Assembly: GCA_017460835.1 (NCBI GenBank)
Contig: JAFUAD010000051.1
Span: 1-35,215 of the forward strand
Reading direction: 5' to 3'
DNA length: 35,215 nt
Origin: Oscillospiraceae bacterium
GTDB lineage: Bacteria > Bacillota > Clostridia > Oscillospirales > Ruminococcaceae
In this document: one piece after another, positions 2,539 to 17,638 of the stretch
Position numbering within the stretch: position 1 is the stretch's first letter
Layout: each line of letters opens with the position of its first letter
Translations under genes and position numbers: made by a program
The notes under the pieces: model-generated
What the model saw: only the letters and a program-made list of their open reading frames with translations
The model's database searches: none
What the model was told of the DNA's origin: nothing

Positions 2539-4965
2539 TTAGCTCACTTCACTTTCTGCTTCTGCCGCTCTTTCTTCTGCCTGCGGCGCAGGCTTCTGCA
2601 TTTGCAGCAGAGATTCTATGTATTGCGTGGTTTCCTGGAGAAGCTGCGCATGACTTTTTTTTTCGTCAACATCTTTTTGAAGCGCTGCGATTTTTCGTTC
2701 AGCTTCCCGCAGTTCTTCATTGAATGTACTGATCTTTTCACTTACAGAAGAAATGACCTTTCCGCACCAATTGTCAAAAACCTCAGTGTTTTGGTTTTTT
2801 ACTGCCTCGATGCGTTCCTTGACCAGTCGTTCAAACTCAGCAAGGAAATTTCGGCAGCAGCCGGAGTTGTTGTAGTTTTCTTTTCCGATCGGGATAAACG
2901 GAATAATCCCCATCCGAATTCCCTTGTGCTCCCGCAGATCAAACTCCACACGTTCCGTTTCCATATCGCTCATATCCAGAACAACAGCATCAAGGATCTT
3001 TTTTTGCGCCTGATTCAGCTTTTTGCTGTCTGTAATAATCGTGCGAAGGATTTTTTGGAAGACTGTTGTCCGTGTTTCCCAAAATGCTTCATTTTCACAA
3101 TTCGTCTCAGCGGATACTGCGTTAAGTAAATTATTGAGCTGCTCTGTAACATAGGTCTGCATTTGCTGAAGCGCCTGCTTTTCATCTCCTCCGTTTGCGA
3201 TCGCAACAGCCTTCAGTGAATTCCATTTTTGCTGGAAATCAACATAAATGCTGCTGTTACTGCGTGTTCCAAAGGTAGTATAGATTTTATTTCTTGCCTT
3301 GAACTCTTCATAGACCTTCAGAACCTCCATACGGAAGAAATCCGCGGCCTTGCTGACAACTGCCTTCCGCTGCACACTCATCGAATCTACAATCTGCTTC
3401 TTTTTTTCTTCAAATTCTCTTGTTGCTTTGGCAAGCGCATCGGTCTGGGCGGCTTCAATATTCCGGACATTCTCTGCGCATTTATCAGATGCCGTTTTCA
3501 GGTATCGGATCGCTTCATGGCATTTCACATACTGTGCATAGCGGCGTGCGTAATTCGCAAGCTCCAGTTCAATACTGGCAAGGCCGCTGTTATAGAGCAG
3601 AAGCGTATTGACACCGTCCTGTTCCGTCAATTCATAATCAAATTGCCTGCTGCGGTCAATAATATTGAAGGTGTATAGCTTCCTCTCGTCACTTTCATAC
3701 AGACTGCTGTTTTTTTCAAATATTTCAAATGTATCCAGATCAAACCAGCTTGATTCCTCGTGCGGATTTTCCTTTTTGCTTGCAAGGCCGAGAATTGATG
3801 ACACAAAAAATATCCGTGTAGATTTCCATTTGGTCAGCTTCAAGCCATCAATTTTATCACGCTTTTCTCCAAGTGAACGGGGGCCCTTGTCATCTGCCTT
3901 GTTGATTACGATCAATCCGTTTGTTGTATCCAGCTTGCTTTCATGTGTATGAAGCAGATTCAATAGGGCATCATTGTCAGTGTTGTCCATGGTATCCGGA
4001 GTTGTCAGAATAATCGGCAATGCATTTGTCTGCACTGTCAGGGCTTCATTCAACACTCTGAAATGCTCTCTGTTGCTCGCAGAATTGGAGCCTGGTGTAT
4101 CATAGATAACAAAATCAAATTTGTCCGTCGGCAAAAGCGTGTTCACATACGGAAGGGTGACCGTAATCAGTTCCCCATCGTTGAACATTTCACCGAACGG
4201 CCGGTTGGCATTCAGGAACTTCAAATAATGGTACATTTTTGCAATTGTGTCTTTTCCATTCTGAATCTGCGCCTGAATCATTGCTTTTACTTCATCATTT
4301 TCACCGGCAATGACCGGAATATCACTGTCAAAATTTACGGAATACTGACATCCGTTCACATAGACTGAAATTGTATAGGAATCCCTGCACTGGATCTTAC
4401 AGACCTTTGCCGTAGTCGGATCCGATGCACTCGGCAGAAGCTCTGCACCGACGAGGCTGTTGATGAATGCGGACTTTCCGGCACTATACAGCCCCATTAT
4501 GCAAATCGCGAGATCGGGTTTGATTGTTTTTTCATAGCTGTTGAGCAATTCTACAATGGCATCTTCTTTGTATTCCGATAAAATACCTTCCACCTCAGAG
4601 AATCTTGTCTTGATATTAGAAAGGGCATACTCAGCATCCAGAAAAAATGGCGGCTCTTTTATGCAGAAAATATTTTTGCTCTCATAGAATAATTCGACTA
4701 CACGTTTCAGGTCATCGAAATCATCCTGCGTGCCGATAAAATGCACTTCAATTCCAAGATCACTCGGATCAAGGTTATCAATTATTTTTACGATTTCATC
4801 TGCTCGGCTTTGCAGTGTCACATCGCGGGTGTATTTTGCATTTGTTAATTCAGAAAAAATATCTGACCGTTCTGACATATCAATATATTTGCCCTCTGAT
4901 TCATCAAACCAGAGATAATCCATCGTTTTTTCATACGGATCGCAGATCATCATCATTTTCATCAT
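2539..4965 (-). CDS. Dynamin-like large GTPase
   Basis: This is a large GTPase of the dynamin superfamily. Counting from the ATG at 4965 (808 aa), G1 is GLYSAGKS at about 158-165, G2 lies in DPTTAK, G3 is DTPG at about 289-292, and G4 is NKAD at about 355-358. The N-terminal 150 residues precede the G domain and are unlike classical dynamins. The C-terminal half is mainly helical and ends in a long coiled coil (to about residue 780) and an Ala/Glu-rich tail. I see no clear transmembrane span. A GTG at 4974 gives three more residues, but the GGAG at 4976-4979 is correctly spaced only for the ATG at 4965. It is the first gene of a two-gene operon with the ATPase downstream and has a consensus promoter (5028-5056). 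Bacterial dynamin-like proteins remodel membranes and some act in phage defence; a defence role here is inferred from the neighbours. Confidence 0.88.
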   Translation of the reverse strand: MMKMMMICDPYEKTMDYLWFDESEGKYIDMSERSDIFSELTNAKYTRDVTLQSRADEIVKIIDNLDPSDLGIEVHFIGTQDDFDDLKRVVELFYESKNIFCIKEPPFFLDAEYALSNIKTRFSEVEGILSEYKEDAIVELLNSYEKTIKPDLAICIMGLYSAGKSAFINSLVGAELLPSASDPTTAKVCKIQCRDSYTISVYVNGCQYSVNFDSDIPVIAGENDEVKAMIQAQIQNGKDTIAKMYHYLKFLNANRPFGEMFNDGELITVTLPYVNTLLPTDKFDFVIYDTPGSNSASNREHFRVLNEALTVQTNALPIILTTPDTMDNTDNDALLNLLHTHESKLDTTNGLIVINKADDKGPRSLGEKRDKIDGLKLTKWKSTRIFFVSSILGLASKKENPHEESSWFDLDTFEIFEKNSSLYESDERKLYTFNIIDRSRQFDYELTEQDGVNTLLLYNSGLASIELELANYARRYAQYVKCHEAIRYLKTASDKCAENVRNIEAAQTDALAKATREFEEKKKQIVDSMSVQRKAVVSKAADFFRMEVLKVYEEFKARNKIYTTFGTRSNSSIYVDFQQKWNSLKAVAIANGGDEKQALQQMQTYVTEQLNNLLNAVSAETNCENEAFWETRTTVFQKILRTIITDSKKLNQAQKKILDAVVLDMSDMETERVEFDLREHKGIRMGIIPFIPIGKENYNNSGCCRNFLAEFERLVKERIEAVKNQNTEVFDNWCGKVISSVSEKISTFNEELREAERKIAALQKDVDEKKSHAQLLQETTQYIESLLQMQKPAPQAEERAAEAESEVS

Positions 4966-5027
4966 AAAGCTCACACTCCAGGCTGTATTTTATCGAAAAT
5001 AATATTTTTTAGTGTGCTATATAAGTA

Positions 5028-5970: not shown

Positions 5971-5999
5971 AAAAGCAGGCTCACGATAAGCCTGCTTTT
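5971..5999 (-). terminator. Intrinsic terminator overlapping the end of the kinase/NB-ARC gene
   Basis: AAAAGCAGGCT and AGCCTGCTTTT form an 11-bp perfect stem with a 7-base loop. On the minus strand the stem ends in a T run just after the TGA stop of the kinase gene (5981-5983). The plus strand also ends in five T, so it could work both ways. Confidence 0.75.
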
Positions 6000-8713
6000 T
6001 CGCGTATTTCATCGCTGACCGGGCGGAACACGCCCTGATCTCTATATGCATCGTTCAGGCGGTCGATCTCTGTGATCAGCCTGCGGCATGTGCTGTAATC
6101 CTGCAATTCTGCATACACATCGAGCTGACAGTTCAGCAGCTCAGCACATTTATCGGTATACGGAATCAGCTCCGGATGCTGTTCGCAAATCTGTACGGCT
6201 TCTTCAAGTTTATCTGCCGCCGCCTGCAATTCTCCGAGATAAAACATGCAGTTTGCAGCCGGAATATGAATAATATCAATGATTTCCAGTTCGGTCGGGA
6301 AGATGCTGCATGCAATCTTCTCGGCCTGACTGATATACAGCATCGCTGTCTGATAATCCGGCTCAACCAAAGTAAAATACCACGCCGAAACCATGCAGAA
6401 ATAACAGTAGTTTTCGGAATGCTCCTGCCCGTATTTCCCAATCAAATCTTGCGTTTTCATGAGCAAATCAGAAATCTTTTCATGATACTCCGGATACATA
6501 CTGCGAATCAGGATACTTGCAAGCGACACGCAGTATTTTGTCAGATAATGCGGTGCTTCCGGCGCATCGGACTGCTCCGCCTCTGAGATCGCATGTTCAG
6601 CAGTCTCCACCTGTTTCAGGAACAGCTCCGCTTCGTCGGCATTCTCCGGCACATAACGCCCCGCAATCAGCGCGTCGTAGTAGAATCCAAGCATCTCATG
6701 GTACATTGCATTGACCAGATGCTCCGGATGCTGTTCCCTGTAATGCGCCGCCTCACGGACAATCAGCCGGATCTGCTCCGCATTCAGCATTCCCATGTAA
6801 ATGTCGATCATTTTCTGATGATCGTCCATGACCTGCACCGCTTTCGGCTCCTGCCAATGCCAATTCCGCACCGTTTCCGCAATCACCGGATGCAGCCGAA
6901 TCCTGCCGTCTGAGATCATCCACCCCTGCTGTGCAAGATTGTTGAGCGTATTGGAATTGATCATGGGATAAAACCGAAGCAGAAGCTCCGTTTCCAGTCC
7001 GCGCACATTCAGCAGCGCAAGGATTTTCAGTGTATGCGCGCTTTCGGGATGCATTCCGGCAGCGATAAACAAACCGGAAATGATCGAAGCAAGCGATGCA
7101 TAGACCTCCTCGCCGTCCTTGTAATTGCCGATTTTTTCGCCGGAAAAGTGCGAGAATCCGTGCTCGCGAATCAAATCCAGCGCAGTATGAATATCGAGAT
7201 TGCCCGCTGCGATCTGCCGCGCAATCAGCTCGATCACGAGCGTATGCTCCTGCACCAGTCCGGTGATCTCATCAAAGCAAACAGTTTCTTCTTTTGTCAT
7301 CTGCCGTTCCAGATTCAAAAGAATCAGCCGGCTGAGCGCAGTTTTGTCTGCGATTGCGCCGATTTCCAGATGCGCAAAGCTGTTTTTCGGCGGCTGATTC
7401 CGCGTGACGATCACGGTATCATAGCCGCAGTCCAGCACGCGGCTCAGGTCTTTGGTCACGGTTCCGCTGAAATTATCCAGCACGAACAGCACGCGCTTTT
7501 CCCCGCAGATATTCCGGAACTGTGTCAGCTTTCTGCGGAAGTACTCCCCTGCCGGTTCGCCGTCCTGCCGCCGAACCGTACTGATTTGCAGCTGGTCGTC
7601 ATCGTTGAATGTCCGCACAAAATCCCCGTCAAATTCCAGATAGACAATCACATCGTACTGATCTTTGTTCTGAATCACATAATTGCGGATCAGCGTGCTT
7701 TTTCCGATTCCGCCGATGCCGGTGACAAAGAGCGTCCTGTTCTGCTTGAGGCTTTCATAAACAGCTTGGAGCTCCTGCGCTCTTCCGACGAAATGCGGCG
7801 AAACCGGCGGCAGCTTCGGAATAATATACTCCCGCAGGCTGCATTCTTCGATCAGCGCATCCAGCAGCTTGACGATCGAATCGGTATCCGGAAAGCGGTT
7901 TGCTGCCGACGAGCGAAGCGTTCCCCGGAACAGCTTTGTCAGAAGACGCTGCACATCCGGGCGGTCAGAATATCGGCGGAATTCCCGCCTGCATTCATGA
8001 AACGGATAACTGGAAAAGCCGCGGTGCTCGGTATCCTCGGAATGCCTGCCGAACAGCAGATAAAACACAATCTCACCGATTGCATACAAATCCGCCGCAG
8101 AGCTGATTCGTCCCGCAGCAAAGGGATGATACTGCTCCGGCGCCGCCCATGCCCGTGTATAGGAATAAACCGATTCTGCTGACAATTCCTGCACTGCACG
8201 GATGCTGTCAAAATCAATAAACTCCACAAGCTGCGTCACGGTTTCATCCGACGCATTTTGCAGGATGAAGATGTTTTCTGGTTTCAGATCGAGCACCAGA
8301 AAGCCGGCCTGATGATACGCGCCGACGGTTTTTGCGATTGCCCTGCACAGCTCCAGATATTCCGGCAGCGTGAGGCCGGTCAGGCGGTCGAGCGTCGTGC
8401 CGCCGAAGCAGGCAATATCCGAATACGCCGTGTCGTTTGCCTCAAAGATGTGGCTGACCGGCGGCGTTCGGTTTTGCAGTGCTGCATTCTGACGCACACG
8501 GTTCTGCATCCTTGCGGCTGCAATAAAACGAGCCTTTCCGGCATCAAAATCTGCCGCATTCCGTGGGGCATACTCCTTCAATATGCACTGATATTGCAGC
8601 TCACCGCTCCGGCACTGTACCAGATACGCGGCAGCATTGGCACCTCTGCCCAGCAGCGCCGTGACAAAATATTCCCGGTTCTCTGCGGTCAGTGTCTCCC
8701 CTGTTTTCAGCAT
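5981..8713 (-). CDS. Ser/Thr protein kinase fused to NB-ARC (STAND) NTPase and helical repeats
   Basis: The 910-aa protein has three parts. Residues 1-285 are a Hanks-type kinase: Gly-rich loop GRGANAAAY at 22-30, catalytic Lys46 (ILKEY), Asp142 in LDLKPEN, metal-binding DFD at 167-169 in place of DFG, and APE at 191-193. The kinase therefore looks intact. Residues 305-610 are an NB-ARC-type NTPase: FVGR at 308-311, P-loop TGIGGIGKST at 331-340, Walker B VLFVLDNF at 408-415, VIVTRNQ at 434-440, then a winged-helix-like segment. Residues 630-910 are helical and probably TPR-like, a usual sensor region of STAND proteins. The ATG has a strong GGAAGGAGG, and TATAAT at 8736-8741 (minus strand) suggests a promoter in the 46-base gap. 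By family logic it is a signal-sensing switch whose kinase domain would be the effector or output; the target is unknown. Confidence 0.9.
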   Translation of the reverse strand: MLKTGETLTAENREYFVTALLGRGANAAAYLVQCRSGELQYQCILKEYAPRNAADFDAGKARFIAAARMQNRVRQNAALQNRTPPVSHIFEANDTAYSDIACFGGTTLDRLTGLTLPEYLELCRAIAKTVGAYHQAGFLVLDLKPENIFILQNASDETVTQLVEFIDFDSIRAVQELSAESVYSYTRAWAAPEQYHPFAAGRISSAADLYAIGEIVFYLLFGRHSEDTEHRGFSSYPFHECRREFRRYSDRPDVQRLLTKLFRGTLRSSAANRFPDTDSIVKLLDALIEECSLREYIIPKLPPVSPHFVGRAQELQAVYESLKQNRTLFVTGIGGIGKSTLIRNYVIQNKDQYDVIVYLEFDGDFVRTFNDDDQLQISTVRRQDGEPAGEYFRRKLTQFRNICGEKRVLFVLDNFSGTVTKDLSRVLDCGYDTVIVTRNQPPKNSFAHLEIGAIADKTALSRLILLNLERQMTKEETVCFDEITGLVQEHTLVIELIARQIAAGNLDIHTALDLIREHGFSHFSGEKIGNYKDGEEVYASLASIISGLFIAAGMHPESAHTLKILALLNVRGLETELLLRFYPMINSNTLNNLAQQGWMISDGRIRLHPVIAETVRNWHWQEPKAVQVMDDHQKMIDIYMGMLNAEQIRLIVREAAHYREQHPEHLVNAMYHEMLGFYYDALIAGRYVPENADEAELFLKQVETAEHAISEAEQSDAPEAPHYLTKYCVSLASILIRSMYPEYHEKISDLLMKTQDLIGKYGQEHSENYCYFCMVSAWYFTLVEPDYQTAMLYISQAEKIACSIFPTELEIIDIIHIPAANCMFYLGELQAAADKLEEAVQICEQHPELIPYTDKCAELLNCQLDVYAELQDYSTCRRLITEIDRLNDAYRDQGVFRPVSDEIREKAGLS

Positions 8714-8759
8714 CGAATCGACCTCCTTCCATCATATTATAACGCATTGTCCGGCGCCG

Positions 8760-9899
8760 TTATAAATCGGAATTCCGCTCGTTGACCAGATGCATCGTCA
8801 GGATCGGGTCATACGAATTGGCACAGTACATCAGCAGGCAGTCAAACGGATGGCAGAAATAAATCTGCGCAAATCCGCAGGAATGCAGAGCGGCATCCGT
8901 TTCCTCATAAAAGTCCAGCAGATTCTGCGTTATCATATCTTTATCCGAATTGGGATTTGTACTGTAGAAATTATAAAAATGCAGCATCATCAGCGTTTTC
9001 CGCAGCAGCTCATAAGACGCTGCCTTGCCGTTGATGATTTTTCCGAGCGTCACATCATTCGGGAGCGATTCGGTAAAGCGTTTCGGAAGCAGCGGCTTTT
9101 CTCCGTCCTTCAGACTGCTCTGATACCGGTAGCCGAACAGCTCCGCGATTGCCGCGCTGTTCAGGCGGTCGCCTGACAGGATATATTTGCTGTCATCATT
9201 CTGAATTGTTTTCTTGAGTTGTTCCAGTTCTTTGAGAATCATCGACCGCGCTTTCTGAAACTGCTGTTCATTGTTGTAGCAGTGCGATGAGAGATACTGC
9301 ATGAATGCCGCATCATCCTCCGTCTGCATGATTTTTGTCATGATCTGCGAGGTCGAGGTGTGCGCATTTTCCTGCGGTACAAATCCGGATGAATTTTTGA
9401 TCATTTCAGCAGCGGAAGCATACGGCTTGTTGTGATAAAAACAATAGCAAAAAACCGCATCCTCGCGGCTTTTCACATTGAACGGAACCGTCAGGAAATG
9501 CTTCTGAAAGAACAGCGCAGTCTGTTTGAAATCCACTTCAAGCGCATAACAAAGCTCGTAATTGTTGATGCGGTTTGTAATGCCGGGGACGGTTCCGTGC
9601 AGCCAGTTCCGCACCGCTTTGGGACAGGGCTTCCGGAGTATTTCTTTGTATCGCCGCTTCACCTCCGCCGACATGACCGCGCTGTCATCCGGCGAACAGG
9701 GAACGCCGAGCTCTGTCAGCCGCTCTGCCAGTCCCTCCAGGAACACCGGACGGTCATTGAGCTCCATAGCACACTGGATTCCTGCCAGAACATCCTCAGC
9801 GGTCTGCGGATTGACCGGCACCCCGAAGCATGCATCGCTGAATATTTCATCGGTGAGATCACCGCGGGTCAGCTCTCTGACCGGATCAATTTTATCCAT
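8760..9899 (-). CDS. Uncharacterised 379-aa protein with a possible HTH
   Basis: The start is the ATG at 9899, preceded by GAGGAGGAG; the open frame extends 59 codons further up but without a ribosome site and through the promoter. Residues about 80-125 (KEILRKPCPKAVRNWLHGTV and what follows) resemble the helix-turn-helix-plus-linker seen in some Clostridia regulators. The rest is helical with scattered Cys, including CYCFYH near 151-156. I do not recognise the family. It is immediately upstream of the kinase/NB-ARC gene in the same direction, so it may regulate or partner that protein. It has a perfect consensus promoter at 9924-9952, separate from the GTPase operon, whose last terminator is at 9965-10000. 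Confidence 0.8.
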   Translation of the reverse strand: MDKIDPVRELTRGDLTDEIFSDACFGVPVNPQTAEDVLAGIQCAMELNDRPVFLEGLAERLTELGVPCSPDDSAVMSAEVKRRYKEILRKPCPKAVRNWLHGTVPGITNRINNYELCYALEVDFKQTALFFQKHFLTVPFNVKSREDAVFCYCFYHNKPYASAAEMIKNSSGFVPQENAHTSTSQIMTKIMQTEDDAAFMQYLSSHCYNNEQQFQKARSMILKELEQLKKTIQNDDSKYILSGDRLNSAAIAELFGYRYQSSLKDGEKPLLPKRFTESLPNDVTLGKIINGKAASYELLRKTLMMLHFYNFYSTNPNSDKDMITQNLLDFYEETDAALHSCGFAQIYFCHPFDCLLMYCANSYDPILTMHLVNERNSDL

Positions 9900-9923
9900 T
9901 TTACTCCTCCTCTCTATATCTTC

Positions 9924-9952
9924 ATTATATCGTTCCGCGGAGCATTTGTCAA
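9924..9952 (-). promoter_or_regulatory. Consensus promoter of the 379-aa gene
   Basis: On the minus strand, TTGACA (9947-9952) is followed after 17 bases by TATAAT (9924-9929). It is placed about 25 bases upstream of the ATG at 9899 and starts transcription of the 379-aa gene and probably the kinase gene. Confidence 0.85.
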
Positions 9953-9964
9953 TACGGAAAATCG

Positions 9965-10000
9965 CCGGACAGCAGAAAGCATTACACCTCTGCTGCCCGG
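9965..10000 (-). terminator. Intrinsic terminator after the 65-aa gene
   Basis: On the minus strand CCGGGCAGCAGA pairs with TCTGCTGTCCGG (one mismatched pair), with a 12-base loop, and is followed by CGATTTTCC. It closes the upstream transcription unit just before the promoter at 9924-9952. Confidence 0.65.
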
Positions 10001-10012
10001 CTTTGGATGGCT

Positions 10013-10210
10013 TTATTCTTTTACGCGGCTTCGGGCATCGTTCCATTTTTCCGCATCCAGCGGCTGATTCAGCCATTTTTCAAAGATTTCACTCTTTTCC
10101 CATAGCGGTTTGTCCTCAAATCTCAGCTTCAGATCCCACATTGCGTAGCGGTAAATTGCGAAAAGGTCCTGTCTCGAACAGTATGTCAGAAAAAACTCTC
10201 GGTTTGTCAT
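10013..10210 (-). CDS. Small uncharacterised protein (65 aa)
   Basis: The ATG at 10210 follows GAGAGGAG. The product is short, polar and aromatic-rich (EFFLTYCSRQDLFAIYRYAM, then WDLKLRF and WLNQPL), with no membrane span or metal motif. It is the last gene before the terminator at 9965-10000. The 163 bases between it and the next gene upstream hold a possible -10 (TATACT on the minus strand) but no convincing -35. Function unknown. Confidence 0.65.
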   Translation of the reverse strand: MTNREFFLTYCSRQDLFAIYRYAMWDLKLRFEDKPLWEKSEIFEKWLNQPLDAEKWNDARSRVKE

Positions 10211-10373
10211 GGCATCGCTCCTCTCTGCATTCAGACGGTTTCCGTTGAAACGGTCGGTGATAACAGTATACTGCATTGCGGAGCGATCAAATAAAAATGG
10301 ATTCCAATTGTGCGAAAATCAGTTCATTTTCACGCACACATTTCTTCAGACTGTTCAGATTTACGGTGTTTTC

Positions 10374-10601
10374 TCACCGTATCATCCGCCATTTGGTATA
10401 TTTTGCGCACTGACATGGCTGTGAAGGAAATGTCGAGGCTCGTTTCATTTCACACATAGCGCCCCGATTGGACATACTTGTAGCTGCATTGCCATTGTTC
10501 GTTAATTCACGAGCGCCCATCCAGTATTCGCAGCTGACGCAGAGCTTTTCCCCGGTGTTCGGAAACGATGTCACCTTTCCGTTCTGGCCGATCATTGCCA
10601 T
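10374..10601 (-). CDS. Small Cys-rich protein (75 aa), putative metal binder
   Basis: The start has a strong AAGGAGGGA seven bases before the ATG at 10601. The product carries CVSCEYW near residues 21-27, then a Cys in AMCEMKRA and CQC near the end, so five Cys that could hold zinc. It lies 15 bases downstream of the coiled-coil gene in the GTPase operon. The family is not recognised; a treble-clef or rubredoxin-like knuckle is possible. Confidence 0.75.
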   Translation of the reverse strand: MAMIGQNGKVTSFPNTGEKLCVSCEYWMGARELTNNGNAATSMSNRGAMCEMKRASTFPSQPCQCAKYTKWRMIR

Positions 10602-10616
10602 ATAAATCCCTCCTTA

Positions 10617-11381
10617 TCATTCCTCTGCATATGAGTCGATAATCACGTCTTCCGTATTCTTCATGCTAATTACAGCATTGGGCGACATCACGGTCGTTCC
10701 GATTGCAGCAGTCAGCGGCGAGAGTGACTCCATCACAGCATCCATACCCTTAGCCATCAGTGCATCCGTATTCTGATTCAGCCTCTTCAGATCTTCTGAT
10801 AGCTCCACGATAAACTTTCCTGCTGTCTCTACCATGCTGCGCCGCTCGGACATAATATCATCACGCAGCATACTGAATGTTTCCGGATCTGTTTCGGCAA
10901 ACATCTCTTTTGCTTCTTTCAGCTCCAGTATTGACTGCTGTTTCGCCTCATCCTGAATGGCACGGTATGCATTTGTTTTCTCCAGTACAAGGTCATTTGC
11001 ACGCTTCCGCATCTCCAAGGACATCGCTCCGATGCTCTCAACAATATCTCTTGTTGCAGCAGCCAGCTCCGTCTGATATTGCTTAACGGCAGCAACCAGT
11101 CTGTCCCGCCGGGCATCCTCCTGTTCGTTGATAAACTGATCTATCTCCGCATTCCATTTCCGCTCATCGGCACGGAGTGTTGCAGCCTCACGCTCACGCA
11201 GTGCCTCCAGCTCGATCTCCGCCTTTGTCCGGTCCGCCTCGATCTCTGCAAGATTCCGCTCCTTTTGCATATCCCGCTTGTGCTCCATGCGCCGCAGCGG
11301 CTCATGAACCCAGTCGCAGATCAGCTCGACCGGCTTATAGAGAATATCATCCAGTTTATCAAACATATCAAGCAGTGCCAT
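10617..11381 (-). CDS. Coiled-coil protein of the GTPase operon (254 aa)
   Basis: The ATG at 11381 follows GAGGAGG, one base after the stop of the preceding gene, so translation is coupled. The product opens with an amphipathic segment (MALLDMFDKLDDILYKPVEL), followed by a long Glu/Arg/Ala-rich coiled coil (about residues 30-210) and a short C-terminal segment with VMSPNAVISM. There is no signal peptide and no catalytic motif. It may be a scaffold or filament-like partner of the two GTPases upstream; that role is inferred from operon context. Confidence 0.82.
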   Translation of the reverse strand: MALLDMFDKLDDILYKPVELICDWVHEPLRRMEHKRDMQKERNLAEIEADRTKAEIELEALREREAATLRADERKWNAEIDQFINEQEDARRDRLVAAVKQYQTELAAATRDIVESIGAMSLEMRKRANDLVLEKTNAYRAIQDEAKQQSILELKEAKEMFAETDPETFSMLRDDIMSERRSMVETAGKFIVELSEDLKRLNQNTDALMAKGMDAVMESLSPLTAAIGTTVMSPNAVISMKNTEDVIIDSYAEE

Positions 11382-11382
11382 C

Positions 11383-11871
11383 TTATTCCTCCTCTTTTTT
11401 AGATTTTGCCTGTTCTATCAGCTTTTTGTAATGATATTTATGCTTTTTGAGATTCACCTGAAGCTGATTGCTTCTTTCATCCCACGCATCGGAGCATTCA
11501 ATAAGCTGATTCACCGATGCAAGCTGTGCTTTCAGTAATTCCGAGAGGGAAGCTGAAGCATTCGCTTCATCGTCCTGCGCTTTCTGCATCAACTCTGAAA
11601 AGTATGAGGCAAAAAATACAGTCAGCTCCCTCTGTTCCTTTTTGCTTTTTCCGCGCAGGAAATATGCCATTTGATCCCAGTGCTGATCGAGCCATTCCAG
11701 CAGATATGCTTCATAGTAAAGGGCGCGAACCTTTCCGGAATCCGGCTCATGCAGTCCGTTGTAAAGGCCGGAGTAGTGCCGGATGATATCTTCATACAAT
11801 TTTTCCCGCTGCGCCTTCATGATCCGCAGTGAAATCTGCACATTGCTGCGATAGTCCTCCGTCAGTTTCAT
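11383..11871 (-). CDS. Helical protein of the GTPase operon (162 aa)
   Basis: The ATG at 11871 overlaps the stop of the previous gene by four bases (ATGA), a mark of a coupled operon. The product is all-helical, with a Trp/Tyr-rich middle (EAYLLEWLDQHWDQMAYFL) and a strongly basic C-terminus (KKHKYHYKKLIEQAKSKKEE). I do not recognise a family and see no transmembrane span. Confidence 0.8.
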   Translation of the reverse strand: MKLTEDYRSNVQISLRIMKAQREKLYEDIIRHYSGLYNGLHEPDSGKVRALYYEAYLLEWLDQHWDQMAYFLRGKSKKEQRELTVFFASYFSELMQKAQDDEANASASLSELLKAQLASVNQLIECSDAWDERSNQLQVNLKKHKYHYKKLIEQAKSKKEEE

Positions 11872-12248
11872 CGCTGCACCTGTCCCATCGTTTCCTGAAG
11901 CTTCACTTCAAATTCACTGAGATTTTTTGTAATGTAATGCGATATCAGCTTCTCACTGATCTGAAAGCTCTTTTCCATATTCTCCTGAAGCATCGAAAGC
12001 CATTCCGAACGGATCTCAGGCTGAACTTCATCCGCCTCCAGTTCTGCACGAATCGCAGGAAGCTGCTTCAGATAGAATTCCTCCCGCTCTGCCCGAAGTG
12101 CCTCCATCATATTTTCGATTGCTTCGATGTCCTCACGGTACACGCGCAGCAGCCTCATAAACTGCTCCTCGCAGGAAATGACAGCTTCTGCGGTGGTTGT
12201 TGCAGCAGCAACTTTTTTCTTACCGAAGCCGTACATCAGGTCGCCCAT
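11868..12248 (-). CDS. Helical protein of the GTPase operon (126 aa)
   Basis: The ATG at 12248 is preceded by AAGGGGTGATC. The product starts MGDLMYGFGKKKVAAATTTA and continues as two or three long helices (coiled-coil type, Glu-rich). It overlaps the next gene by four bases, and its length and composition resemble that neighbour, so the pair may form a hetero-oligomer. No known family recognised. Confidence 0.8.
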   Translation of the reverse strand: MGDLMYGFGKKKVAAATTTAEAVISCEEQFMRLLRVYREDIEAIENMMEALRAEREEFYLKQLPAIRAELEADEVQPEIRSEWLSMLQENMEKSFQISEKLISHYITKNLSEFEVKLQETMGQVQR

Positions 12249-12254
12249 GTGCGA

Positions 12255-12617
12255 TCACCCCTTTATTTCAATGACGATCTTTTTTTTGCCGATATTGAAT
12301 GATCTGATTCGTCTGGTTTTAAGCCCGCTGAGATATTTCAGAAAGCTCGCTATTCCTGCCGCATACTGCGCGGAAGTCGGAATCTCAAAATAGATCCGCA
12401 TATCTGCATCATACTGAAGCGGATGATTCCAATAACTGAGAATCTGAAATATCTTTTTCTCAGTCTCTAACGAATCACTCTGATCAGGATAACCAGAATA
12501 ATCAGGGCTGCTGCCGCGGCCAGCAATACCGGGATCAGGCTGCCTCTGCGGGGTGATTTGTCCTTGCTGCGCGGATCGGAGGATTCCGTTTTTTTTTGAG
12601 CCCCGTAAGAACCCCAG
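12255..12617 (-). CDS. Open frame overlapping the 337-aa gene's end: startless small gene or -1 frameshift extension
   Basis: The frame is open from 12617 to a TGA at 12255-12257. Its last 75 codons, in the 210-base gap after the 337-aa gene, read like a real protein: ETEKKIFQILSYWNHPLQYD, then MRIYFEIP and FLKYLSGL, ending KKKIVIEIKG. No ATG, GTG or TTG occurs before an internal ATG that would leave only 48 residues without a good ribosome site. The frame is -1 relative to the 337-aa gene, and a run of nine A (T at 12589-12597 on the plus strand) lies where the two frames overlap. A -1 slip there would replace the membrane tail of the 337-aa protein by this domain. Alternatives are a rare start codon such as ATT, or a sequencing error. 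Shown as an open frame; the true extent is unknown. Confidence 0.45.
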   Translation of the reverse strand: MGFLRGSKKNGILRSAQQGQITPQRQPDPGIAGRGSSPDYSGYPDQSDSLETEKKIFQILSYWNHPLQYDADMRIYFEIPTSAQYAAGIASFLKYLSGLKTRRIRSFNIGKKKIVIEIKG

Positions 12618-13480
12618 TCATTTGGCTGGAACCGTTCACGCGGCGGCTGCTCGGTCTGCTGCGGGGCACGCCTGATCTGCACAGAACCGTCATCAGTCTG
12701 CCGAAGCACAGATGAACGCGGAGCAGTCTCCGCCGGCTTCGCAATGCTGATCTTTGGCGCTGATTTCAATGATTCATACAGCTCCTCAGAAACAACTGTT
12801 GTTCTGAACTGCGTTTTTTCCCAGAAGGATCTTTTTTCGATCTCCGTCATCAAGGAGTCGTCAGCACCGCTGAGAATCCGATGGAACATATCATCCAGAA
12901 TTTGCTGACGGTTCGCATCAAAATCCGCTTGCCGGATGACATTGTGCGTGCCGATCGTTACACTCTGCGGGACAAATCCGGCGTTGTATTTCTTTTCATC
13001 CAGCTCAAGCGGCGGGAATTCCAGCTTCTCTGAAGCTGTTTCCTGCACACTTGCCCATTGATGCCGCAGATATTCCAGATAAATATGCCAGTACCGCTCC
13101 GTTGTCACATCCGGGATGCAGTCTGCCTGAACCTCGCTTTTGGGGATTGCGACACCGATAAAGCACGCGATTTTTCTGCCCTTGCAGTCATGCAGATACG
13201 CTTCTGCTTCGGATGAAACATCCTCCGGAACATATGCCGCACCGCTTGCCCTGACAAGTGCAAACAGTGTTTTGCTGATTGCGGTCAATCCGCCGCAGAT
13301 GAAATAATCTCCGACCGCAAATGCAGAGTAGCGGATGCCCTCCAGAAAATCCGGCTCAAACAACGCATCCCCCACATATTTCAATGCGGTCTGATAATCA
13401 AGATCTGCCGGTCGTGTCAGAAAATCGGAAACAAAGTCAAAATTCAGGGTTCTGCTGTAAATCAACGGATATGCTTTCAT
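12467..13480 (-). CDS. Tail-anchored GTPase-operon protein, possibly GAP1-like (337 aa)
   Basis: The ATG at 13480 follows GAGGTGATAAA. Residues 1-230 form a mixed domain opening MKAYPLIYSRTLNFDFVSDF and containing GIRYSAFAVGDYFICGG. This loosely recalls the GTPase-associated (GAP1) proteins that accompany double-GTPase systems, but I cannot confirm it. Residues 240-312 are a Pro/Gln/Arg/Ser-rich linker. The last 24 residues are a hydrophobic helix ending in RVIR, so the protein is probably anchored in the membrane by its C-terminus with the domain in the cytoplasm. A nine-A run (minus strand) within the linker is a potential slippage site (see 12255-12617). It lies just downstream of the second GTPase gene. 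Confidence 0.82.
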   Translation of the reverse strand: MKAYPLIYSRTLNFDFVSDFLTRPADLDYQTALKYVGDALFEPDFLEGIRYSAFAVGDYFICGGLTAISKTLFALVRASGAAYVPEDVSSEAEAYLHDCKGRKIACFIGVAIPKSEVQADCIPDVTTERYWHIYLEYLRHQWASVQETASEKLEFPPLELDEKKYNAGFVPQSVTIGTHNVIRQADFDANRQQILDDMFHRILSGADDSLMTEIEKRSFWEKTQFRTTVVSEELYESLKSAPKISIAKPAETAPRSSVLRQTDDGSVQIRRAPQQTEQPPRERFQPNDWGSYGAQKKTESSDPRSKDKSPRRGSLIPVLLAAAAALIILVILIRVIR

Positions 13481-13496
13481 TTTATCACCTCATTCA

Positions 13497-14552
13497 TTAT
13501 AAATTGACTATTTCTGCGGCATCAAATTCCCGTTCGATTCCGTCCTCATACATCGTAATCTGCCGGCTGTCCCGCAGCAATTGTGACGAGACCGCCTGCA
13601 TCAGCTTTTTATAATGCATCAGCAGTTCAGAATTAGAACGGATTGTTTCCTGCGCAGATTCAATCGCGCGAAGCTGTCCGGAAATATCAGAGCCGTTCAG
13701 CAATCTGCCAAGCCAGCCCCGGTTGTTAATCTGGTTAATCTGACTCTGATTTACGGCAATGCTTCCTCTGTTTCGCCTTTCCTCATCCTCGATTTCTCTC
13801 TTTAAGGACAGACAGAAATTAAGGAACTGATGATATATCCCGATAAAGAACGGCAAATGCATCCCGATCGGTTCCACATCACCGGAGTAATTGTCTTCTG
13901 CGATCCCTTCGCCGAGTGAAACCATCGTAACATAAAACCGAATGTCCTTGCACATCAGCATATCAAAACACTCATGCATAATTTGCGTAATGTTATAATT
14001 GCTCCAGTAATCCGATACAAGATCGCCTTTCGTAATGACAAATACAATCGGCGGAACCGTATCCGGGTGAGATTCAGTATATTCGTTCAGGTACGCATTC
14101 AGTGTTCTGACATTTTTCTTCAGATTGCGGATTCCGACAGCAGGATCATCCTCGCAGAACAATTCTCCGTCAAGAAACAGATAAAGTACGGTTGATTGTT
14201 CAATTGATTCCGTCAGAGCCTGATAGGATTCCGGATTGTTTTCTCGTGCGCGGAGCGTACCCCCTGCATAATCAATCCAGTTAAAGGTCATAATATCCTT
14301 CAGTGCATATTTTAGCTTGAACTGATAATCGGATACCTCAGTCAGTCCGGTACCGGCCGGAAATCGCTCCTGCCCGTTTCCGTCGTCCAGTTGATCCATC
14401 CATGTTTCCAGCTTTGATACGGAATCGCCGTCCGCTTTCAGCGAAAAGCCCTTGTAGCCTGTGATCATCTGATAATACATACCGAGAACATAGCAGGTCT
14501 TCCCGCATCCTGACATTCCGAGTGCTGTAAATCTTGTATTTGTGCTTGCCAT
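13497..14552 (-). CDS. Second GTPase of the operon (351 aa)
   Basis: The ATG at 14552 follows AAAGGA, five bases after the stop of the membrane GTPase. P-loop GMSGCGKT is at 12-19, a G3-like WIDYAGG at 92-98, and a G4-like TKGD at 174-177 after the hydrophobic strand IVFVI. The C-terminal 110 residues are helical with a Gln/Asn-rich stretch and no membrane span. The order of P-loop, DxxG-like and xKxD motifs makes it a TRAFAC-type GTPase. Adjacency to another GTPase matches the double-GTPase (DO-GTPase) arrangement proposed for bacterial conflict systems, so it may be the soluble partner. The specific family is an inference. Confidence 0.85.
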   Translation of the reverse strand: MASTNTRFTALGMSGCGKTCYVLGMYYQMITGYKGFSLKADGDSVSKLETWMDQLDDGNGQERFPAGTGLTEVSDYQFKLKYALKDIMTFNWIDYAGGTLRARENNPESYQALTESIEQSTVLYLFLDGELFCEDDPAVGIRNLKKNVRTLNAYLNEYTESHPDTVPPIVFVITKGDLVSDYWSNYNITQIMHECFDMLMCKDIRFYVTMVSLGEGIAEDNYSGDVEPIGMHLPFFIGIYHQFLNFCLSLKREIEDEERRNRGSIAVNQSQINQINNRGWLGRLLNGSDISGQLRAIESAQETIRSNSELLMHYKKLMQAVSSQLLRDSRQITMYEDGIEREFDAAEIVNL

Positions 14553-14557
14553 TTTTC

Positions 14558-15922
14558 TTATCCTTTCCGAACTGCATTATCATAAAACTGTACCAGTTCA
14601 TCTTTATATCTGACCTGCTTCGGGATATTCTGCATGACAGCCCGCTTCTCCTCAAGGCTGTCCGCCAGCTTTCCCGAAAGCAGATACCATCCAACATAAA
14701 GTGCAACAAAGATAACCCCCCGCACACCGAAGCTGACCATAAAGCCGCCGAGCACGCCGATCACACCGAGTATCTTTGCAGCCTTGTTCTCAACAAACAG
14801 CGCAACGGCTCCCCAGAAAGCCCCGCCTATGATGCCGCCGAGTAAGGATTGATCCTCATTTTCCGGAAACAGAAGTGCTGTCACGACCATAATTCCAAAG
14901 AGAATCAATGCAACCACAGTATTAATCTTCTTCATTTTTTCATGCCAGTACGTCTGGAAATACCCTTCCTCTCTCGATGCATCATAGGAATAGGCGACAT
15001 TGTCAAAGCCGCCTGCCAGCATCGCCTGATTTTTCAGCATCAGCCTGTGAAGGGATATTCCGAAATGGCGCATCGACAAATCTGTTGCAGGGTTGAAGAG
15101 CTGCGAGGATAATCCGGATTCCTCCTGATTCAAGCTCTGTATCTGCTGCCTGAGCTCCTGAATCACAGACCGGCTCTTAAACCGTTTATTGCTTTCAATC
15201 CGGTATTTATTCGACAACTGACTGCGGCGTTCCTGAACCTTTTTGAGCTTCACAGATACCGCTCCGGATACGGTTTCCTGAACATTCCGATATTGACAGA
15301 ACATCAGAGACAGAACAGCAACCAAAGGAGTTCGTACACTTGTATCCGACAGAAGAATCAGCGGCTTCGTCATCTCGGATACAAGTCCACCGAATGCAGA
15401 TTCCACAATACGCCCGAACTTTTGACGTCCTTCATCGTTCAGATACGAGACCAGATATGTGCTGACCTTTGAGGCGACAAATAATAATTCCGGCGCTTGT
15501 CCGTCATGTGCATCGGCATAATCCGAAACGAGCGGAACAATGATACGGGCATATTTCTTTCGGATCGTTTTTTCAATCATATCCTCCTGTTCAGATTGAA
15601 ACCATGCCCCGTCCAGCATAATAATCCAGGAGCTTTTTGTCAGCAGCGAGCGGTACATTTTCTCCCGTTCCGCATCATTTTCCTCATTTTTTTGCAGAAG
15701 CTCACCGGGGTATTCCGTTACGGACACCGTATGCTGCTCCGATCCGTCAATGGATACAGGATAAACCTTCTCAGCAAACGGTCGGTTCTCATCGGGATGT
15801 AATATTGTCGGCTCCCCGATACTGAGCCTCGGCACAAACATCTCTTTATCACGCTCAAAGGCTTCGATCAACGCAGTTTTTCCGGAAGACGGAAGCCCAA
15901 GTACGGCAATATTCAGATTCAT
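14558..15922 (-). CDS. Membrane GTPase, first GTPase of the operon (454 aa)
   Basis: The start is the ATG at 15922 with GAGAGGGG; an in-frame TTG at 15937 lies too close to that site. P-loop GLPSSGKT is at 9-16, a G3-like TEYPGE at 69-74, and ASKVS at 149-153 takes the place of the G4 NKxD motif. Residues 215-275 form a basic coiled coil. After about residue 325 come three to four transmembrane helices, including VVALILFGIMVVTALLF and a Gly-rich pair, then a basic tail. It is thus a GTPase anchored at the inner face of the membrane. It is co-transcribed with the second GTPase; the pair probably signal to each other. Confidence 0.85.
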   Translation of the reverse strand: MNLNIAVLGLPSSGKTALIEAFERDKEMFVPRLSIGEPTILHPDENRPFAEKVYPVSIDGSEQHTVSVTEYPGELLQKNEENDAEREKMYRSLLTKSSWIIMLDGAWFQSEQEDMIEKTIRKKYARIIVPLVSDYADAHDGQAPELLFVASKVSTYLVSYLNDEGRQKFGRIVESAFGGLVSEMTKPLILLSDTSVRTPLVAVLSLMFCQYRNVQETVSGAVSVKLKKVQERRSQLSNKYRIESNKRFKSRSVIQELRQQIQSLNQEESGLSSQLFNPATDLSMRHFGISLHRLMLKNQAMLAGGFDNVAYSYDASREEGYFQTYWHEKMKKINTVVALILFGIMVVTALLFPENEDQSLLGGIIGGAFWGAVALFVENKAAKILGVIGVLGGFMVSFGVRGVIFVALYVGWYLLSGKLADSLEEKRAVMQNIPKQVRYKDELVQFYDNAVRKG

Positions 15923-15940: not shown

Positions 15941-16108
15941 CTAGTCATCGGAGTGTGTTTGTATTTGACGCGGCGGAACAGGATGCGTTTTTCGTCCCGT
16001 CAGCACACACTCTCTGCAAGGACTGATAATGCAGCGATTCTTGCCGTGCCGATACGGACAGCGGATACATTTTATCCGGAATAATACCGGTCTCATCTTT
16101 CTTCTCAT
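15941..16108 (-). CDS. Cys-rich microprotein at the head of the GTPase operon (55 aa)
   Basis: The ATG at 16108 lies 18 bases before the start of the membrane GTPase at the other end of the gene, after GGTGAAAATC preceded by AAAGGAA. The product is very basic and contains CIRCPYRHGKNRC, SPCREC and a His near residue 42, that is, five Cys and two His in 30 residues, so it probably binds zinc. Another frame across the same bases (15945-16139) has no ribosome site and a random composition. Operon position suggests it is a small regulator or cofactor-binding subunit. No family recognised. Confidence 0.6.
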   Translation of the reverse strand: MRRKMRPVLFRIKCIRCPYRHGKNRCIISPCRECVLTGRKTHPVPPRQIQTHSDD

Positions 16109-16180
16109 GATTTTCACCAATTCCTTTGTTTATACTCAAAAAACGGTGGTATAATAAATGATATACGGTTCAAATCAGCA

Positions 16181-16202
16181 CTTTCGCAAAGTTCGGCAAT
16201 TT
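16181..16202 (-). repeat. 22-bp inverted repeat, left copy, flanking the recombinase gene
   Basis: On the minus strand it reads AAATTGCCGAA, C, TTTGCGAAAG. It matches the sequence at 17536-17557 on the plus strand at 21 of 22 positions. The shared centre TGCCGA is flanked by partly complementary arms, the layout of a tyrosine recombinase core site. Confidence 0.65.
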
Positions 16203-16229
16203 CGGAAAACAATTCCGTTTCTTTCGGAT

Positions 16230-17357
16230 TCACACAGTTTTTTCGTTCTCATCCGACGGAAAATCTGACGGCAAATTTGCTTTTTTCATGAGCAGATTCA
16301 TGCACTCGATCTTCCGCTCCATGGAAGAATGCACATACGCCCTGAGTGTGGTATCGACGGATGCATGGCCGAGAATCTCCGAAAGCGTTTTGATATCACA
16401 GCCGGCCTGCAAGCTGTTCGTCGCGAACATATGACGCAGGCAGTGATAGTTGACTGACGGCAAACCTGCTTTTTTCAGGACGCTGCGAAACCGGTTCTGC
16501 ATGGTCCGCGGTTCAACCAAATGCTCCGTACCGGAGAGCAGATAACACTCTCCTGCACAGGCAAACCGTTTGAGCAGCATCAGAATCGGTACCGGAACCG
16601 GTATCACACGCTGAGAATGAACTGATTTCGGAGTGTCCGTATTAAGCCTCGTACCGTGTTCAGTGCAGATACGCTGTACGGTTCTTCTGACTGTCAGTGT
16701 GCGGGACCCAAAATCAATATCCTGCCACTTCAAGCCGCAGATCTCGCCGATTCGCAGTCCGGCATACATGCTCAGCAGAATACCTGCCGCAGTCGGATTC
16801 AAATTTTGAAGCAGATAATCGGAAAGCGCGCTTTGCTGCTCTTTTGAATATATCTTTTTCTCGCATTTATGCACTTTTGGAATATCGACATATTCCAGCG
16901 GGCTGCGGTATCCGTGTACGCGCTTCATATACTTTGCCATAGATTTCAGCACGGTCACGATGTCTGCGACATATTTCGCGGATAACCCGCTGCAGCGCTT
17001 CTCCGCAATAAAATCCTGCACTGCTGACGGCGTCAGCCTTTCATAATAGAGCGCGCCAAGCCCGGGTAAAAGATGCTTTCGGATCTTCATGGAATAATTG
17101 GCAAATGTTGATGCTTTCACCGTGTTCCGGATCGCAGCAAGCCACTCACGAAAAAGCTCCCGGACTGTCTGTTTCCCGGAAGAATGATTCTGTTCAGGCT
17201 GTGTTCTCAGCAAAATGAGCTTTTGCCGAGCCTCCTGATAGCTTTTCCCGTAAACGGAACGGTATTTTGCCTTTCCGGATAAGTCAGTTCCGCAGCGGTA
17301 ACGGCCTTCCCAACGTCCGTCCCGCCGCTTATATAGATTCTCTCCTCGCCGCGGCAT
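16230..17357 (-). CDS. Tyrosine recombinase/integrase (375 aa)
   Basis: The ATG at 17357 follows CAGGAGGTACGCT. Domains in order: an N-terminal arm-binding domain (residues 1-50, basic, with DGRWEGRYRCG) as in Tn916-type integrases; a SAM-like core-binding domain (about 62-160); and the catalytic domain (about 170-360). Catalytic residues are all visible: Arg202 in GLRIGE, His305 and Arg308 in HCLRH, His331 in LGHAS, and nucleophile Tyr341 in LRAYVH. The enzyme should therefore be active. It is flanked by a 22-bp inverted repeat and not by obvious excisionase, relaxase or cargo genes, which suggests a local inversion or a stranded integrase rather than a complete mobile element. No good promoter was found for it. 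Confidence 0.93.
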   Translation of the reverse strand: MPRRGENLYKRRDGRWEGRYRCGTDLSGKAKYRSVYGKSYQEARQKLILLRTQPEQNHSSGKQTVRELFREWLAAIRNTVKASTFANYSMKIRKHLLPGLGALYYERLTPSAVQDFIAEKRCSGLSAKYVADIVTVLKSMAKYMKRVHGYRSPLEYVDIPKVHKCEKKIYSKEQQSALSDYLLQNLNPTAAGILLSMYAGLRIGEICGLKWQDIDFGSRTLTVRRTVQRICTEHGTRLNTDTPKSVHSQRVIPVPVPILMLLKRFACAGECYLLSGTEHLVEPRTMQNRFRSVLKKAGLPSVNYHCLRHMFATNSLQAGCDIKTLSEILGHASVDTTLRAYVHSSMERKIECMNLLMKKANLPSDFPSDENEKTV

Positions 17358-17474
17358 AGCGTACCTCCTGTCTGATGACGATGATTCTGACGGCTCATAG
17401 TTTGTTTTCGGTCACAGATTCCGGCCTTTCTTAAGTTAATTTGCATACCCGTTCTGTAATTTTGTACAAAACGC

Positions 17475-17503
17475 TTGACAACCGGAAAGAATTGTGGTAT
17501 AAT
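17475..17503 (+). promoter_or_regulatory. Consensus promoter P1, inside the putative invertible segment
   Basis: TTGACA at 17475-17480 and TATAAT at 17498-17503 are separated by 17 bases. It points right, across the inverted repeat at 17536-17557, toward the NACHT gene. The start is expected near 17510. Confidence 0.88.
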
Positions 17504-17535
17504 GTCACAAAGAATACTATTCGGATGCTGTACGC

Positions 17536-17557
17536 AAATTGCCGAAATTTGCGAAAG
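17536..17557 (+). repeat. 22-bp inverted repeat, right copy
   Basis: It reads AAATTGCCGAA, A, TTTGCGAAAG and is the inverted partner of 16181-16202. Locally CGCAAAT (17533-17539) and ATTTGCG are perfect 7-base inverted arms around TGCCGA. It lies in the leader between P1 and P2. Confidence 0.65.
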
Positions 17558-17609
17558 CAATTCCGATAGATTTCGTCTTCTGTTTCCGTGCAGAAGACAT
17601 TTTCTTTGC

Positions 17610-17638
17610 TTGACAACCGCCTTCAACTATGGTACAAT
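17610..17638 (+). promoter_or_regulatory. Promoter P2 of the NACHT gene, outside the putative invertible segment
   Basis: TTGACA at 17610-17615 and TACAAT at 17633-17638 are separated by 17 bases. It is placed about 90 bases upstream of the TTG start at 17730. The gap 17358-17729 thus holds P1, the repeat and P2; I see no further gene in it. Confidence 0.8.

Follow-up and report, generated by a model that had tools for sequence, protein, structure and literature searches.

A probable self-contained invertible promoter cassette between a GTPase operon and a NACHT-like gene in an Oscillospiraceae genome

The locus

The window analysed here is the whole of a 35,215-bp contig (JAFUAD010000051.1) from an Oscillospiraceae bacterium, one contig of a 2.98-Mb metagenome-assembled genome (MAG) in 103 contigs, the nearest named relatives of which among the compared records are Ruminococcus. 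A leftward operon that opens with a small cysteine-rich protein and continues with GTPase-like proteins is separated, in this window, from a rightward gene for a NACHT-like protein by a segment of ~1.35-1.38 kb. The segment is bounded by a pair of inverted repeats, and the sole evident gene between them encodes a tyrosine recombinase (Table 1). From the features set out below, the segment is very probably a self-contained invertible promoter cassette, the flipping of which would turn on the cysteine-rich protein/GTPase operon and the assembled orientation of which is best read as the OFF state.

The reading frame of the recombinase is intact, as the sequence-only reading had it, and its integrase match in Pfam is strong. 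Residues R202, K244, H305, R308, H331 and Y341, which we take to be the catalytic R-K-H-R-H-Y set of a tyrosine site-specific recombinase, are all present, and the six are invariant in 60 of 60 aligned recombinase rows. Relatives of the enzyme were gathered by scans of genome contigs (18 loci), of the genus (8 of 30 genomes at 1e-60, own genome included), of the family (30 of 297 genomes at 1e-80, own genome included) and of plasmids (13 records), and occur in Ruminococcus relatives and in some Enterococcus records. In total, 64 recombinase loci were examined for inverted repeats; individual loci are designated by number (L019 and so on), and the duplicates L066, L067 and L077 are counted once where stated.

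Recombination sites

The two repeats are complementary at 21 of their 22 positions, just as first reported from the sequence. Their shared asymmetric centre also stands, although not its length: originally given as the six bases TGCCGA, it is one base longer, the 7-bp TTCGGCA. Extended inwards, the right site is a perfect palindrome, CGCAAAT-N7-ATTTGCG (17533-17553, reading CGCAAAT-TTCGGCA-ATTTGCG with its centre), while the left copy has one change in its outer arm and a degenerate inner arm. In other words, the segment carries the inverted sites with an identical crossover region that are expected of an inverton.

Such repeats are a regular companion of the recombinase family. Inverted repeats with a score of at least 14 surround the recombinase in 56 of the 64 relatives, two of these (L121 and L127) being long repeats, not plain sites; absence of repeats beside orthologous recombinases, the outcome which the sequence-only reading had named as fatal to inversion, is accordingly not what is found. 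An earlier set had 56 rows, of which 45 score at least 16 (42 of 53 once the three duplicates are removed), as against 1 of 560 shuffled flank pairs. No repeat of score 14 was found at L019, L020, L021, L023, L045, L051, L101 or L125 (8 of 64), the first three of which have just an 8-9-bp core in common, in inverted orientation. Of ten other tyrosine recombinase matches in the window's own genome, seven were covered by the comparison, and none of these seven, two of which are short partial matches, had inverted repeats around it.

The centres are equal within a locus and different between loci: the 7-bp centre is identical (7/7) at each of the 29 loci with a TTCG-type arm, and identity between loci is 37%. 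This is the pattern which strand exchange demands, since the two centres need match each other only. The within-locus identity is partly a product of selection, as all 29 loci were chosen for having a repeat.

At L023 (Ruminococcus flavefaciens YL228), the recombinase of which belongs to the NACHT-linked group described below, the left site is present, the right site was not found and the sequence that follows looks resolvase-like, such that the switch there is probably locked.

Promoters and terminators

All promoter and terminator calls given here are consensus matches, the activity of which is predicted only. The promoter P1, earlier described as a perfect one that lies inside the segment and points outwards across the right repeat, does match the sigma-70-type consensus at 12 of 12 positions, and thereby supplies the outward promoter within the segment that is the second mark of an inverton. 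The arrangement is widespread: with site coordinates picked by hand, an outward promoter of at least 10/12 lies between the site and the recombinase start at 46 of 48 loci (12% of shuffles; other strand 12/48), and one of at least 11/12 at 25 of 48 (1.2% of shuffles; other strand 3/48). Facing the first codon of the operon at 16108, the best promoter-like match within 16109-16229 is 8/12, much as in shuffles of the P1 region, which average 8.2, and in agreement with the earlier failure to find a good promoter there in the present orientation. After inversion, the -10 box of P1 would sit 126 bp from this codon.

What the sequence-only reading lacked is the intrinsic terminator between the right site and the NACHT-like gene. 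At all six loci with a NACHT-like gene, P1 is separated from that gene by a hairpin followed by a T-tract, with folding energies from -13.9 to -19.0 kcal/mol, and at four of these loci (L019, L020, L021 and L022) the terminator hairpin is the recombination site itself, with the T's after it. Across the family, terminators lie on the P1-facing side at 14 of 46 loci and on the opposite side at 2 of 46 (shuffles 4% and 3%; L047 and L074, with short flanks, were left out). The suggestion that P1 serves the NACHT-like gene at present is rejected on this ground, the terminator intervening both here and in the five related NACHT loci. Indeed, the separate promoter P2, placed outside the segment by the earlier reading and upheld here at 11/12, has equivalents of at least 10/12 before the NACHT-like gene in five of the six loci, the exception being L020. 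When the flipped state is modelled, the P1 transcript meets no T-tract hairpin stronger than -6.4 kcal/mol, except at L042.

The assembled orientation is therefore best read as OFF, because a terminator stands between P1 and the NACHT-like gene and because the latter has its own P2. In the mechanism proposed, the recombinase encoded within the segment would recombine the inverted sites inside their 7-bp centres and so turn ~1.35 kb around. As assembled, P1 would fire across the right site into the intrinsic terminator, with nothing useful transcribed, and the NACHT-like gene would run from P2 independently of P1. After inversion, P1 would face the operon from 16108 to 10617 with no T-tract terminator between, which would be the ON state and in which P1 would be the operon's main promoter. 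Such a state would be heritable and probably stochastic.

Table 1. Features of the window around the putative switch
Feature	Position	Strand	Basis or remark
Left recombination site	16181..16202	+	outer arm CTTTCGCAAAG, centre TTCGGCA (16192-16198), inner arm begins ATTT; 21/22 inverted repeat
Right recombination site, inverted	17536..17557	-	centre 17540-17546; inverted repeat and layout common to 29 loci
Tyrosine recombinase, 375 amino acids, presumed invertase within its own segment	16230..17357	-	Pfam PF00589 (Phage_integrase) 4e-23, PF14659 3.8e-11
P1, TTGACA-17-TATAAT, outward promoter inside segment	17475..17503	+	12/12 sigma-70-type consensus match
Intrinsic terminator between right site and P2	17575..17598	+	9-bp stem, T-rich tail to ~17608; -13.9 kcal/mol
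P2, TTGACA-17-TACAAT, the NACHT-like gene's own promoter, outside segment	17610..17638	+	11/12; counterpart of at least 10/12 in 4 of 5 related loci
NACHT-like STAND NTPase, 924 amino acids	17730..20504	+	TTG start with GAGGTGA ribosome site; P-loop and LDG.NE conserved; Pfam NACHT E 0.13
Cysteine-rich protein, 55 amino acids, first gene of putatively switched operon	15941..16108	-	L022 has a homologue at the corresponding place
GTPase-like protein with apparent membrane segments	14558..15922	-	weak DO-GTPase2 match, PF19993 E 0.0025, below cut-off
DO-GTPase-like protein	13497..14552	-	PF19975 4e-6, 26.7 bits against a cut-off of 27
GTPase-module protein, C-terminal membrane segment, GAP1 position	12467..13480	-	L176 and L177 have it beside the GTPase; nothing significant in Pfam
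GTPase-module small protein	11868..12248	-	syntenic in L176 and L177
GTPase-module protein	11383..11871	-	syntenic in L176 and L177
GTPase-module protein, last gene of putatively switched operon	10617..11381	-	synteny in L176 and L177; weak ZorA-type match, 3.4e-4
Terminator-like hairpin after the operon	9964..10001	-	15 pairs; hairpin prediction
Promoter-like site of next operon	9952-9924	-	12/12 consensus match
Short terminator-like hairpin just inside left site	16203..16217	+	weak
Possible inward promoter	16126..16155	+	weak; 9/12, not above shuffles

Opposite orientations in relatives

Segments in opposite orientations are found among relatives of the window. L111 and L112, from two species of one genus, have one flank in common (91.9% over 3.3 kb) but carry the segment beside it in opposite directions (89.8% over 1.39 kb). 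Aligned to L112, L111 is reversed over 7719-9095 and forward over 9066-12347; the two alignments each stop within the site, and at this breakpoint the inner arms are exchanged. The second direct case, from the window's own subfamily, is L169, which runs forward with L019 over the NACHT-like gene, P2 and the left site (88%, 1.58 kb) and is reversed over the block of P1 and the recombinase leader (85.5%, 145 bp). L169 has no recombinase match, and its P1 faces a gene that is 71% identical in DNA to the cargo beside L027, another recombinase copy in the same genome; it is read as a copy which would be locked in the ON orientation. Beyond these pairs, genes for response regulators of the LytTR type (Pfam-checked in L097, labelled elsewhere by similarity or start sequence) lie on the recombinase-end side at seven loci (L092, L097, L098, L099, L116, L118 and L127) and on the P1-facing side at two (L043 and L115).

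The search of related genomes for the opposite orientation, proposed with the original reading, has in this way yielded cases at L111/L112, L169/L019 and the response-regulator loci, with one common flank in each of the two direct cases and the window copy known as one assembly. Together with the design shared across the family, these orientations support the part of the original reading in which inversion places P1 before the GTPase operon; the part in which P1 is the present promoter of the NACHT-like gene did not survive. By analogy with its relatives, the window copy would be expected to flip as well.

Among the Enterococcus loci (five from E. raffinosus, one each from E. gilvus, E. faecalis and Enterococcus sp.), no flips were seen in the listed blastn matches of more than 150 bases, and the three opposite-side matches that came from tblastx, which involve L105, are weak (26-33% identity).

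Several other cassettes of the family adjoin genes of different kinds. The response-regulator operons, which can lie to one side of the segment or to the other, are apparent phase-variable regulators. On the E. raffinosus and E. gilvus megaplasmids (L103 and L105), the inverted sites adjoin apparent surface-protein operons, the L105 neighbour being annotated as a WxL protein and the L103 flank being similar by tblastx. Cassettes at L085, L091, L096, L122, L125 and L126 adjoin very large proteins (1,128-2,338 amino acids, with N-termini resembling secretion signals) or, at L126, small peptides with GG-type leaders, and appear to be switches for surface proteins or bacteriocin-like peptides. The plasmid pRUMAL02 of Ruminococcus albus 7 (L102), typed as conjugative, bears a cassette in which the sites match at 20/20 and the outward promoter is perfect, with the gene of another site-specific integrase near it. 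Finally, the cassettes at L111:7719-9092 and L113:4063-5435 are the same, with 92.6% identity site to site, at two loci of one genome with different flanks, as though a cassette could be copied from one site to another or swapped between them.

The operon and its counterparts

The hairpin that follows the operon (10001-9964) and the promoters that belong to the next genes (9952-9924 and 5056-5028) set its limits, so that seven genes, from 16108 to 10617, would come under the switch. Its first product, the 55-residue cysteine-rich protein, aligns to a homologue at L022 with a score of 96 (best of 500 shuffles, 52), where the homologue precedes an unrelated cargo. The five-gene GTPase module that makes up the greater part of the operon (13497-10617) has a match at 1e-15 in 3 of 294 family genomes, own genome included, and lies as a syntenic block at L176:7500-11538 and L177:2382-6053. 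On the stretches of L176 and L177 that were read, there is no recombinase or NACHT match beside the module, which is accordingly regarded as a separate cargo. Within the window's module, no GAP1 match was found in Pfam, and the PF19975 match falls short by the margin given in Table 1. Profile matches of cargo in relatives make the operon a putative defence or conflict system.

Cargo at the corresponding position in relatives varies. Two dynamin-like GTPases are found at L020 (one matching PADLOC LeoA, the other without a match) and at L025 (both LeoBC in PADLOC), and one (LeoA) at L084, beside which there is no NACHT-like gene. A GTPase-like gene at L168 was recognised by eye from its P-loop alone. 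L022 carries a retron-type reverse transcriptase (RT_Ec107-like, 3.8e-118), and L021 and L028 carry IetA-like AAA ATPases. L025, L027, L028 and L168 are contig ends, with the NACHT side beyond the contig.

Further along the window lie a protein kinase domain with a STAND-like ATPase region (5981-8713) and a dynamin-like GTPase (2539-4974), each with a perfect promoter-like site upstream (9952-9924 and 5056-5028, respectively). These conflict-type genes form an immune-like island which adjoins the switch.

The NACHT-like gene

The assignment of the rightward gene is a loose one, since its Pfam NACHT match is below the cut-off, although the P-loop and LDG.NE motifs are conserved in five aligned NACHT-like proteins; a structure model made from five sequences is poor, with a mean predicted local distance difference test (pLDDT) value of 44. 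A NACHT-like gene is divergent from the recombinase start at six loci, namely the window, L009/L042, L019, L020, L021 and L022. Identity to the window protein is 55% at L009/L042, over the 132 residues on that contig, and 33-37% at the other four, over 736-862 aligned positions. Homologues without a recombinase match on the available stretches also exist at L083, L167 and L052, the last of which retains ~124 N-terminal residues.

Weighing the evidence

Several observations tell against the reading of the segment as an OFF-state switch for a defence operon. As regards transcription, three 9/12 promoter-like matches lie before the GTPase gene and point towards the operon (16108-16081, 16096-16069 and 15937-15908), a 10/12 match lies within the operon at 13525-13496, and such internal sites might give some expression in either state; L020 has its own 10/12 promoter on the cargo side. 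In the modelled ON state, the bare site still folds (window -14.3, L042 -15.3, L022 -14.0), mostly without a T-tract, and L042 keeps a hairpin with T's at -11.9. As regards cargo, a purely defensive role is at odds with the zinc-ribbon protein and YidD at L042, the SH3 protein without a PADLOC match at L027 and the cargo without an assigned identity at L019 and L032. As regards orientation, the evidence comes from relatives, the window strain being represented by the assembled orientation alone, and no NACHT locus with an intact recombinase is in the opposite orientation (six of six lie the same way). L111 and L112 share one flank only, the other side of L112 being 132 bp with no match to L111, and confidence in the switch as a whole is slightly lower for this reason. 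L169, a MAG contig, has lost its recombinase gene and could in principle be misassembled; it too shares one flank with L019, its cargo matching L027 instead. It is thus conceivable, if improbable, for L111/L112 and for L169 alike, that a cassette arrived already reversed.

Linkage suggests that the NACHT-like protein might govern the flip. In its fullest form, in which the protein would be a constitutive sensor that, once triggered, promotes inversion and so arms the opposite operon, the proposal must be deemed unlikely. It would account for the promoter and the insulating terminator of the NACHT-like gene, and for the grouping of NACHT-linked recombinases with that of L023 (support 95/81) while cargo varies, a grouping in which the NACHT label needs two changes. 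This grouping comes from a tree of 60 of the 64 loci, from which L051, L087, L092 and L104 were omitted for their short extracted frames. It dissolved once partial rows were added: a 26-row tree with five partial recombinases is unresolved, and the NACHT label then needs five changes. Moreover, relatives with other targets occur in both orientations without a NACHT-like gene, the homologues at L083, L167 and L052 lack a recombinase match on the available stretches, and the proposal is an inference from sequence.

Two further explanations are far less probable. P1 could be the promoter of a two-way switch that drives the NACHT-like gene in the assembled orientation and, once inverted, the GTPase operon. 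Its present direction and the adjacency of NACHT-like gene and recombinase in six loci are what such a switch would have; the terminator-like hairpin between P1 and the NACHT-like gene in six of six loci, and the P2-type promoters in all but L020, are not. Similarly improbable is that the recombinase derives from a lost or mobile element, with the repeats as attachment arms or ends and the opposite orientations as separate arrivals. Its integrase domains in Pfam, the cassette common to L111 and L113, which suggests that cassettes also move, and the single common flank in L111/L112 and L169/L019 fit this account. Attachment sites, however, would be direct repeats accompanied by further element genes, and the window has inverted ends with no other evident element gene inside; at the breakpoint between L111 and L112 the inner arms have been swapped, and neither an outward promoter nor a one-sided terminator is expected of a mere element. 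Lost attachment arms, which the sequence-only reading had entertained, are disfavoured by the inverted sites and by relatives in both orientations. Least likely is its other alternative, that the repeats are operators for self-repression of the recombinase and repression of P1 with no inversion. A site that is nearly palindromic does lie 32 bp from the -10 box of P1, but an operator has no use for an asymmetric centre that is the same in both copies, as it is at all 29 repeat-selected loci, and relatives exist in opposite orientations.

Comparison with known systems

Hin of Salmonella is a serine invertase, in the system of which an outward promoter lies in the inverted segment and the flip connects it to an operon outside. 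The window resembles it in layout, with recombinase gene and outward promoter both inside the segment and the target operon outside, and differs in its tyrosine recombinase, its type of site, its GTPase conflict-type target and the opposing terminator which marks the OFF state. As only tyrosine recombinase domains, and no serine catalytic domain, are found by Pfam, membership of the Hin class is not claimed. The position of the Hin recombinase inside the invertible H segment is described in passages of two papers (PMC2784873, PMC5903667), the latter of which also mentions a putative 844-bp invertible segment enclosing a recombinase frame; this is likened to the window by its layout alone, inverted repeats around their own recombinase.

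The terminator finds a parallel in the model given for C. difficile cwpV and RecV, in which an orientation-dependent intrinsic terminator at the inverted repeat stops the OFF transcript (PMC2784873, in the part consulted). There, however, the promoter is outside the segment and the recombinase is elsewhere in the genome, whereas the window has both inside. Gut invertons are often tied to surface structures, according to the parts consulted of a survey in which a Clostridia inverton group (139) is linked to a tyrosine recombinase group (35) and its flipping is followed in reads (PMC11892184). Group 139 is like the window in being from Clostridia and in inversion between repeats with a tyrosine recombinase, and unlike it in that the two examples with printed coordinates are ~255 bp, too short for a recombinase gene. 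The main text of that survey does not use the word 'defense'.

A link between DNA inversion and phage defence is described for PinQ of E. coli, a serine recombinase of one prophage that inverts a segment of another and so inhibits T2 adsorption (PMC12529663, in the part consulted). The enzyme class differs, and that inversion is not one of a promoter for a defence operon. The same source remarks on how often a recombinase in the neighbourhood of defence genes is discounted as a prophage marker. The operon itself recalls the DO-GTPase/GAP1 systems (PMC7159879, in the part consulted) in having a DO-GTPase-like protein and, next after it, a protein with a membrane anchor at the place of GAP1, albeit with a Pfam DO-GTPase match just under the cut-off and no GAP1 match; the main text of that paper has the word 'recombinase' at one place and neither 'invert' nor 'integrase' anywhere. 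No description of a tyrosine-recombinase invertible promoter before a defence operon was found among the papers listed from the open PubMed Central literature, as covered by titles and the starts of abstracts, preprints being outside the scope. What appears new is the setting of a switch of a known kind, an invertible promoter, here with a Hin-like layout and a tyrosine recombinase before a GTPase operon.

Significance

The emerging picture is of a recombinase family that carries promoter and enzyme as a single flipping unit, one lineage of which has become attached to operons of conflict or defence type. A wider generalisation is decidedly tentative, and on balance doubtful: that a STAND/NACHT-like sensor and a self-inverting cassette form a conserved regulatory head for interchangeable defence cargo (DO-GTPase, dynamin-like GTPases, retron-type reverse transcriptase, IetA-like AAA ATPase), which would normally be held OFF, P1 being turned towards a terminator within or next to the recombination site, and would be armed by inversion, possibly via a NACHT signal, as a heritable immunity under a genetic switch. 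The switch, if it is as proposed, would account for one sort of 'integrase' in defence islands that is easily taken for the relic of a mobile element. In such a case, a costly defence would become a heritable and reversible choice of single cells.

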